Positions 14,360 through 16,662 of a DNA stretch of 33,158 bases are shown here, one piece after another. Within the stretch, counting starts at the first letter, position 1, and every line of letters starts with the position of its first letter. A program made the translations under genes and the position numbers. The stretch lies in the NCBI GenBank assembly GCA_902826025.1, contig CADEDH010000071.1, positions 1 through 33,158 of the forward strand, given 5' to 3'. Origin of the DNA: an uncultured Actinomycetes bacterium (GTDB lineage Bacteria > Actinomycetota > Acidimicrobiia > Acidimicrobiales > SZUA-35). The notes beneath the pieces are model-generated. The model was given only the letters and a program-made list of their open reading frames with translations. It was not told the DNA's origin and did not search any database.

Positions 14360-14641
14360 ATGAACACGACGATGACCCGCGCCCTGGGTCCGGTGCTGGC
14401 CGGCCTGAGCCTGGTGGGCCTGGCCGCCTGCGGCGGCGGCTATGAACGCCAGGACGCAGTCGACGAACTCGTCGAGGGCGGCTTCACAACCGAGCAGGCC
14501 ACCTGCATGATGACCGAGCTCGAGACGTCGATCGGCACCGACCGCCTGGGCGACCGCAGCTTCCTCGGCTCGGAGGAGCTGACGGCCGAAGAGGAGGCAG
14601 CGGTCACCGACGCCACGCTCAAGTGCCTCGTCGGCTCGTGA
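14360..14641 (+). CDS. Small lipoprotein of unknown function
   Basis: A 93-residue exported protein. A hydrophobic signal peptide ends in the lipobox GLAAC, with lipidated Cys near residue 25. The mature part of about 68 residues is acidic and has two further cysteines (TCMM and KCLV), which could form a disulfide. It shows no recognised domain. The ATG is supported by AGGAGG about 8 nt upstream and by the signal peptide. It converges on the candidate selenoprotein gene, the two stops being 13 bp apart. Confidence 0.75.
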   Translation: MNTTMTRALGPVLAGLSLVGLAACGGGYERQDAVDELVEGGFTTEQATCMMTELETSIGTDRLGDRSFLGSEELTAEEEAAVTDATLKCLVGS

Positions 14642-14654
14642 CGGCCTCCCGCCG

Positions 14655-15785
14655 TCACAGCGTCTTGGGGTAGTACTGTCCGGGGGCGAGGCGGGCCACG
14701 TCGGCGTCGAAGTTCGACTCGAACGGCCAGTCGGCCTCCTCCCCGGGCAGCGGCACCTGGGACAGCCGGCCCATCTCACCGCCCACCCGCTCGTTGCCCA
14801 CCAGCGACCAGGCCTGGCGCTTGTAGGTCCAGTTGTCGGGCTGGAGGCGGTGACAGGCGTTGAAGTGGCGGATCGCCGCTTCCCGGTGCCCGGCCCGCCA
14901 CAGGTGGTTGGCCAGCTCGAAGTGGGCGGCGGCGGCCGACACCCGGGGCAGGCGGGGTTGGCTGGCAGCCACCACCTCGTCGGGGCTGAGGACGTGGGGG
15001 CTGTCGTCCCCCCGCCGGGCCCAGTCCCTCAGGGCCTCGGCGTAGCCGTCGCGGGTCTGACCCGAGCCGAGCTGCGTCATGAGGTCCATGGGCGGCGTCT
15101 CGCCGGCGGCGATCGCCGCCTCCCGGGCCTCGGCCGCCAGGCGGGCCCGCTCGGCCAACCGCTCAGCCAGCGCCTCGGGGTAGGCGGCGGGCCCCGGCCA
15201 CCCCGGCTCGGGCGGACGCACGATCATCCCCTGCTCGTCGATCCAGATGACGTTGGGGATGTTGACCACACCGAACAGCGCGTCGAGCTGGTGGGTGGGA
15301 TCGACCAGCGACGGGTGCTCGGGCCGAGCCGCCTCGATGAACTCCCGTGACGCCTCGGGACCGCTCAGCTCCAGGGAGACGGTGACGATCTCGACACCCA
15401 GCGGGTGGAGTTCGACGCGCAGCGCCTGCCAACCTGGCAGGTCGAAGCGGCAGCCTCAATACGGGGCCCAGGCGACGAGCACCACCTTCTGGCCCCGCAA
15501 CGACGACAGCCGCCATGGGCGTCCGTCGAGGTCGGCCAGCTCCAGCTCGGGCGCCTCGGCGCTCACCAGGGCCCGGCCGGTGACCGACTCCGGGCCGACG
15601 GCCCACAGACCGTGCGCCGGCTCCTCCACCACGGCCATGCCCAGCCGAGCGGCGGCGTCGGTGAGGCTGAAGCCGCCGGGCAGGGGCAGGCACAGGTCGC
15701 CCTTGCACGCCCCCTCGGGCTTGATCTCCCAGCCGGTGTCGGCGTGGAAGCGGGCCGGGCTGACGTCGAGAGAATCCACGAGCAT
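14655..15785 (-). CDS. Redoxin-family protein, candidate selenoprotein (in-frame TGA)
   Basis: A thioredoxin-fold protein of 376 residues if the TGA at 15456-15458 is read as selenocysteine. Residues about 75-200 are the redoxin domain: LRGQKVVLVAWAPY, then TGA (residue 110), then GCRFDLPGWQ, giving Sec-Gly-Cys where homologues would carry Cys-Gly-Cys. The fold continues in the same frame with VEIVTVSLEL and a typical NIPNVIWIDEQG segment. The C-terminal third (about 260-350) has TPR-like helices. Codon bias is unbroken across the TGA, unlike a decayed gene. A hairpin with a GGU loop follows the TGA. Likely role: thiol or peroxide redox chemistry in the cytoplasm, since no signal peptide is seen. 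Start ATG 15785 has no clear ribosome site and may be leaderless. The alternative is a nonsense mutation or a sequencing error. Confidence 0.75.
15425..15441 (-). promoter_or_regulatory. Candidate bacterial SECIS hairpin
   Basis: Read on the minus strand, CCTGCCA-GGT-TGGCAGG forms a perfect 7-bp stem with a GGU loop. It begins 14 nt after the in-frame TGA. Known bacterial SECIS elements lie immediately downstream of the UGA, within the coding region, with a G in the first positions of the apical loop. The E. coli formate dehydrogenase element also has a GGU loop at nearly this distance. A bulged U like that of E. coli is not evident. Confidence 0.7.
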
Positions 15786-15807
15786 CACACGATCATCGCA
15801 CCCGGAG

Positions 15808-15813
15808 TAGGGT
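15808..15813 (+). promoter_or_regulatory. Predicted -10 box, leaderless start of the SDR at 15820
   Basis: TAGGGT is followed by six bases and the ATG at 15820. Only 34 bp separate this gene from the divergent selenoprotein candidate, so no room exists for long leaders. Confidence 0.4.
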
Positions 15814-15819
15814 CGGTCC

Positions 15820-16662
15820 ATGGACACGACGACCAGGGATGTCGCCGTGGTGGTGGGGGCCACGTCGAAGTGGCAGGCCGATGGCCGCAACACCCTGCTG
15901 GCCCACGGCCATGCGATCGACGACAGCGATCTGCCGCCCGGCGCCCGTTGGGGCATCGGCGGGGCGGTGGCCCAGAAGCTGGCGGCCGAGGGCTGCCGGG
16001 TGGTGCTCACCACCCGCACCGCGGCCAACGCCGCCGGGCTGGAGGCCCAGATCCGGGCCGACGGGGGTGAGTGCATCACCGTCGAGCTCGACCTCGTGTC
16101 GGAGGATTCGGTCAAGGCGGCGTTCGCCAGCATCCGGGCCGCGGTGGGTGACCCGTCGATCGTCGTCTACAACGCCGGGTACCTCGAAGGGCGCGACCTG
16201 CCCCCCGAGATGGAGTTGCTGGAGCACATTCCCACCGAGCTGTTCGACACGGCCCAGCACATCGCCAGCCGGGGCCCGTTCCTGGTGGCCAAGGAGGTGC
16301 TGCCGGCGATGCGGGAGGCAAGGCGGGGCACGGTGCTGTTCTCCAACAACGCGGCGTCGCTGCGGGGCCGCAAGCGCTACACCGGCCAGTCGCTCTACTA
16401 CCCCCGGGTGCTGATGCGGACCCTGGCCCAGGTGCTCACCGAGGAGTACTCCGAGCACGGCGTCCACGTGGCCAACGTCGTGATCGACGGCCTGATCGAC
16501 TCCCCCGGCACCCGGGCCCTGCCCCTGGCCCAGAAACACCCGGAGCTGGTGATGAACCCGGAGAAGCTGGCCGAGGCCTTCTGGTACCTGCACTCCCAGG
16601 ACCGCTCGGCCTGGACCCACGAGCTGCAGCTCACCCCGTATCCCACCAAGCCCAGCTACTGA
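15820..16662 (+). CDS. Atypical SDR-family oxidoreductase
   Basis: A 280-residue Rossmann protein related to short-chain dehydrogenases. The usual TGxxxGIG loop is split: VVGAT at 11-15 and GIGGAVAQKLAAEG from 45 are separated by about 29 residues rich in polar residues and Pro. NAG is present in VVYNAGYLEG. The region expected to hold the Ser-Tyr-x3-Lys triad reads FSNNAASLRGRKRYTG and QSLYYPRVLMRTLAQ, with no Lys four residues after either Tyr. It may therefore bind NAD(P) without standard SDR chemistry, or use another base. The start is leaderless, with TAGGGT 6 nt upstream. It diverges from the selenoprotein candidate, which may hint at shared regulation. Confidence 0.85.
   Translation: MDTTTRDVAVVVGATSKWQADGRNTLLAHGHAIDDSDLPPGARWGIGGAVAQKLAAEGCRVVLTTRTAANAAGLEAQIRADGGECITVELDLVSEDSVKAAFASIRAAVGDPSIVVYNAGYLEGRDLPPEMELLEHIPTELFDTAQHIASRGPFLVAKEVLPAMREARRGTVLFSNNAASLRGRKRYTGQSLYYPRVLMRTLAQVLTEEYSEHGVHVANVVIDGLIDSPGTRALPLAQKHPELVMNPEKLAEAFWYLHSQDRSAWTHELQLTPYPTKPSY

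Follow-up and report, generated by a model that had tools for sequence, protein, structure and literature searches.

The window analyzed here, the whole 33,158-nucleotide stretch from an uncultured Acidimicrobiales bacterium, raises the question of whether an in-frame TGA is a stop or a codon for selenocysteine (Sec). On the minus strand, positions 15785 to 14655 form a single redoxin/TPR frame of 376 codons, the sole interruption of which is a TGA at 15458 to 15456. The complete coding sequence (14655 to 15785, minus strand; 376 residues including Sec110) matches the NCBIfam model NF041054; it starts with ATG at 15785 to 15783 and ends with a TGA stop at 14657 to 14655, both on the minus strand. 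Translated from 15785 to 14655, the protein reads MLVDSLDV...LVAWAPY-U-GCRFDLPGWQALR...YYPKTL, where U is residue 110 counted from the ATG and the surrounding codons are GCC TGG GCC CCG TAT TGA GGC TGC CGC (AWAPYUGCR). The initial annotation, which gave no strand, had described the TGA as the only break in a redoxin-like frame, lying at the place of the catalytic Cys and followed by Gly-Cys. This description proved accurate for the minus strand, where the gene lies and where the motif is WAPY-U-GC.

We then asked whether this gene belongs to a known family. NF041054 matched it with 446.9 bits (cut-off, 300) over profile positions 1 to 351 of 354. This model (WAxxUGC_long, "ResA-like WAxxUGC motif-containing protein") is an equivalog model of the full-length architecture, and its name itself carries U at the position in question; the motif WAxx-U-GC is present in the window's gene as WAPY-TGA-GC, TGA being the codon for U. 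We found no essential difference from the family: the gene is a typical member, and the relatives of its genome within the taxonomic family are Acidimicrobiales. The tables of the GOS survey of ocean metagenomes already included UGC-containing Prx-like selenoproteins in 2008 (PMC2398784), UGC-containing Prx/TlpA-like selenoproteins are listed in a review (PMC9312934), and another review (PMC13188914) lists a "UGC-containing TlpA disulfide reductase family protein." Examples of the UGC-containing Prx/TlpA-like type given in the reviews are MBL6689828.1 and MDE0950781.1. These published proteins (pfam00578 or cd02966) share the Pfam domain and the Sec-Gly-Cys with the gene studied here, and they may be the same as its long, TPR-carrying form. 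A literature search on the motif name WAxxUGC returned no papers. The suggestion that the Sec form of this redoxin/TPR protein might be undescribed was wrong, since NF041054 covers the full-length architecture and publications have dealt with UGC-containing Prx/TlpA-like selenoproteins from 2008 at the latest. This is very probably a real selenoprotein gene, but one of an already known family.

Reading TGA as Sec depends on a dedicated machinery, and the initial annotation had proposed a search for selA, selB, selC, and selD in the same genome. All four are present in the host genome (6.87 Mb, 96% complete, 162 contigs). A tRNA-Sec with a TCA (UCA) anticodon scored 65.6 bits, over the Rfam cut-off; only RF01852 matches above the cut-off were called and their anticodon then read, as matches below it turn up in all control genomes. 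SelB (270 bits) adjoins SelA (401 bits). SelD (371 bits; C52:16496-17413) contains one in-frame TGA of its own, and the host SelD is probably a selenoprotein too.

Mechanical ORF calling split the gene into two pieces, 15456 to 16133 (with an upstream ATG extension) and 14655 to 15269, as had been predicted for a standard gene caller. This split is what would be expected of two genes, the first coding for a short N-terminal protein that stops at the TGA and the second, downstream, for a TPR protein with an internal GTG as its start. However, the redoxin domain would then be severed at the active site, the frame is uninterrupted in seven homologues with TGC or TGT, and the AlphaFold2 model of the whole protein (with Cys in place of Sec) folds as one, with a mean pLDDT of 94.3. 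We consider the chance of two separate genes to be negligible.

The TGA could also be a nonsense mutation or a miscalled base in an ordinary Cys redoxin gene, a reading that a single genome, assembled in 162 contigs, could not exclude by itself. Among 85 distinct relatives covering the site in register, all carry either a Sec-type stop or Cys at this column (TGA in 77, TAG in 1, and TGC/TGT in 7). The TGA is thus common to 77 distinct relatives from many genomes, across genera and phyla, with both flanking domains conserved, and a pseudogene or sequencing error is accordingly extremely improbable. In the same taxonomic family, 30 of 39 genomes had a match over the cut-off, and each of the 36 above-cut-off copies contained exactly one TGA. 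A complete or partial SelA was found in all 30 gene-bearing genomes, and the three genomes of this family without a SelA match have no above-cut-off copy. Phylum-wide, 10 of 246 genomes carried a copy over the cut-off. A further locus, additional to the 85 sequences, is the Rubrobacter marinus copy, which has TGA at the site and frame shifts on either side and is a pseudogene or a sequencing error.

The Cys homologues anticipated at this position were indeed found (7/85), and the replacement residue is always Cys. These forms come from five Frankia, Pseudomaricurvus, and one Burkholderiales metagenome-assembled genome. A SelA match is missing in three of the seven genomes and present in four Frankia. 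Sec is therefore not obligatory for the family; in these four Frankia, which combine Cys, a broken stem, and a SelA match, Sec was lost or never gained in this gene while SelA was present.

The stem in question belongs to a bacterial SECIS hairpin, CCUGCCA-GGU-UGGCAGG, at 15425 to 15441 on the minus strand; its stem is shared by 76 distinct sequences, among which synonymous changes compensate each other. This perfect hairpin of 7 bp, with its GGU loop, 14 nucleotides past the TGA, had already been noticed, and we located it at 15441 to 15425. Its place shortly after the UGA and the G in its apical loop agree with what is expected of a bacterial SECIS element. We also considered thermodynamic stability as evidence but dropped it, as the folding energy of the 44-nucleotide stretch was ordinary (z = -0.78) and not distinctive. 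What speaks for the hairpin is its conservation, together with the compensatory changes.

With position 0 set at the T of TGA, the six stem pairs from 17:33 (outer) to 22:28 (inner) are preserved in 99 to 100% of the 76 distinct Sec sequences. The peptide DLPxWQ largely fixes four of these six pairs, however, so codon-level evidence outweighs conservation alone. The C-G pair formed by the Leu and Gln codons became T-A in four sequences through two synonymous changes (CTG...CAG to TTG...CAA), and it is T-G in two. Furthermore, within the hairpin Pro is encoded only by CCC or CCA, Gly only by GGG or GGT, Val only by GTG, and Leu only by CTG or TTG, whereas outside it the same genes use CCG (42%), GGC (54%), GTC (46%), and CTC (39%). 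Thinning to 24 divergent sequences, a crude correction for relatedness, left this pattern without exception as well. The apical triplet is GGU, GGG, or GUG across the family, and it is coupled to the preceding codon in 76 of 76 sequences, CCA or TCA occurring with GGT and CCC with GGG or GTG. The GGU loop of the window's gene, closed by an A-U pair, is thus one of two coupled loop types. Judged from these codons, the hairpin RNA is under constraint. The stem is broken in the Cys forms of Frankia and Pseudomaricurvus; the Burkholderiales Cys form keeps the stem sequence, but with CCG, a codon absent from all Sec forms.

A frame that is open under any readthrough would also fit insertion of another amino acid at the TGA, such as Trp, by suppression or a change of code. 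The homologues do not agree with this, as they replace the residue always by Cys, and the gene's own terminal stop is TGA. Additional evidence came from a copy with TAG at the Sec position in Geodermatophilus sp. TF02-6, which prompted a search of its taxonomic family (99 genomes). The gene was present in 4 of the 99 genomes; all four copies use TAG for Sec and have the same hairpin after it, and all four genomes encode a tRNA-Sec over the cut-off with a CTA (CUA) anticodon, which ARAGORN names tRNA-Pyl because of that anticodon. The TAG codon is therefore found exactly where the anticodon is CUA, and readthrough with a residue other than Sec is very unlikely. UAG-encoded Sec is already known in the Geodermatophilaceae, where a passage of PMC5330540 names formate dehydrogenase, UGSC proteins, and an AhpC as genes with it. 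The four relatives found here likewise combine TAG with a CUA tRNA-Sec, but the WAxxUGC family is not among the genes listed in that passage, and the window's gene itself uses TGA. This is a natural control, in which the choice of stop codon for Sec goes with the tRNA-Sec. The family also offers a clean experiment of nature: a UGA codon is matched by a UCA anticodon and a UAG codon by CUA, both versions retain the hairpin, and most Cys forms lack it.

Overall, the sel genes of the genome, the Cys/Sec homologues, and the conserved downstream hairpin strongly support the reading of TGA as Sec, and on Sec the call made from the raw sequence was right. Of the findings named beforehand as refuting it, neither a genome lacking selB/selC nor homologues with a residue other than Cys or Sec at this position turned up. 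The gene is almost certainly an NF041054 selenoprotein gene, in which the UGA at 15458 to 15456 would be decoded as Sec by the host SelA, SelB, SelD, and tRNA-Sec(UCA), directed by the hairpin 14 nucleotides downstream, to give a predicted thioredoxin-fold oxidoreductase.

What might this oxidoreductase do? Residues 78 to 192 (15219 to 15563, minus strand) form an AhpC-TSA/redoxin domain with a ResA/TlpA-like thioredoxin fold (PF00578, 6e-14). A sequence search of the PDB returned ResA/TlpA-like proteins, and in a fold search with the AlphaFold2 model ResA was the best solved match (TM of about 0.74 by target length). The Bacillus thiol-disulfide oxidoreductase ResA shares the thioredoxin fold (PRK03147 ResA model, 7e-13). 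However, its active site is CxxC, whereas the UGC site has one spacer residue instead of two, and the matched ResA chains, of about 140 residues, leave two regions uncovered. The score of the gene against the ResA subfamily model (NF002854/PRK03147) was below the cut-off (48.8 versus 170 bits). The first uncovered region is the N-terminal domain (15564 to 15785, minus strand), which was modeled with confidence and carries the Cys pair C27 and C32 in a nearly invariant GACKGDxCVPL motif. The second is a C-terminal helical, TPR-like region with a near-invariant RLQPDNWTYKRQAW (14808 to 14933, minus strand), seen in the alignment and in the model; its match to PF07719 (TPR_2) was weak, at 22.1 bits against a gathering score of 27. 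In an alignment of 35 sequences, C112 never varies, position 110 holds Sec or Cys throughout, and C27 and C32 are nearly invariant.

In thioredoxin folds, the attacking Cys directly precedes a helix. In the AlphaFold2 model, residue 110 sits immediately before the first long helix (residues 111 to 129), and Sec110 would be the attacking nucleophile, with Cys112 as its putative selenenylsulfide partner. The most likely function is that of a selenenylsulfide/thiol oxidoreductase, and the Sec-Cys pair may cycle in thiol-disulfide exchange or peroxide reduction. The N-terminal CxxxxC pair may pass electrons on, with the TPR-like tail as a possible binding site for a substrate or partner. By eye, no N-terminal signal is evident, which would suggest a cytoplasmic location. 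No conserved partner gene emerged from a coarse clustering of neighbors across loci, which was dominated by overlapping spurious frames, and a plasmid search gave no match to the gene. In Acidimicrobiales and their relatives, the family may thus serve a selenium-dependent redox function. We regard as rather doubtful a bolder proposal in two parts. According to the first, the N-terminal CxxxxC pair, the UGC site, and the TPR tail would form a relay within one molecule that acts on a dedicated partner, making the long WAxxUGC protein a selenium-dependent redox system of its own; according to the second, its UAG form in the Geodermatophilus group, with its CUA tRNA-Sec, would be a so far unreported addition to the UAG-Sec set.

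Several genomes (G002, G004, G005, G006, G014, and G029) are listed for double or divergent copies; some have two above-cut-off copies and some a divergent form of about 170 bits, which also contains an in-frame TGA. Shorter matches occur as well, for example, at G004:C87:65-928 and G022:C361:1629-2219. Finally, the plus strand of the window encodes, at 14360 to 14641, a small predicted protein with a lipobox-like LAAC motif, convergent with the selenoprotein gene.
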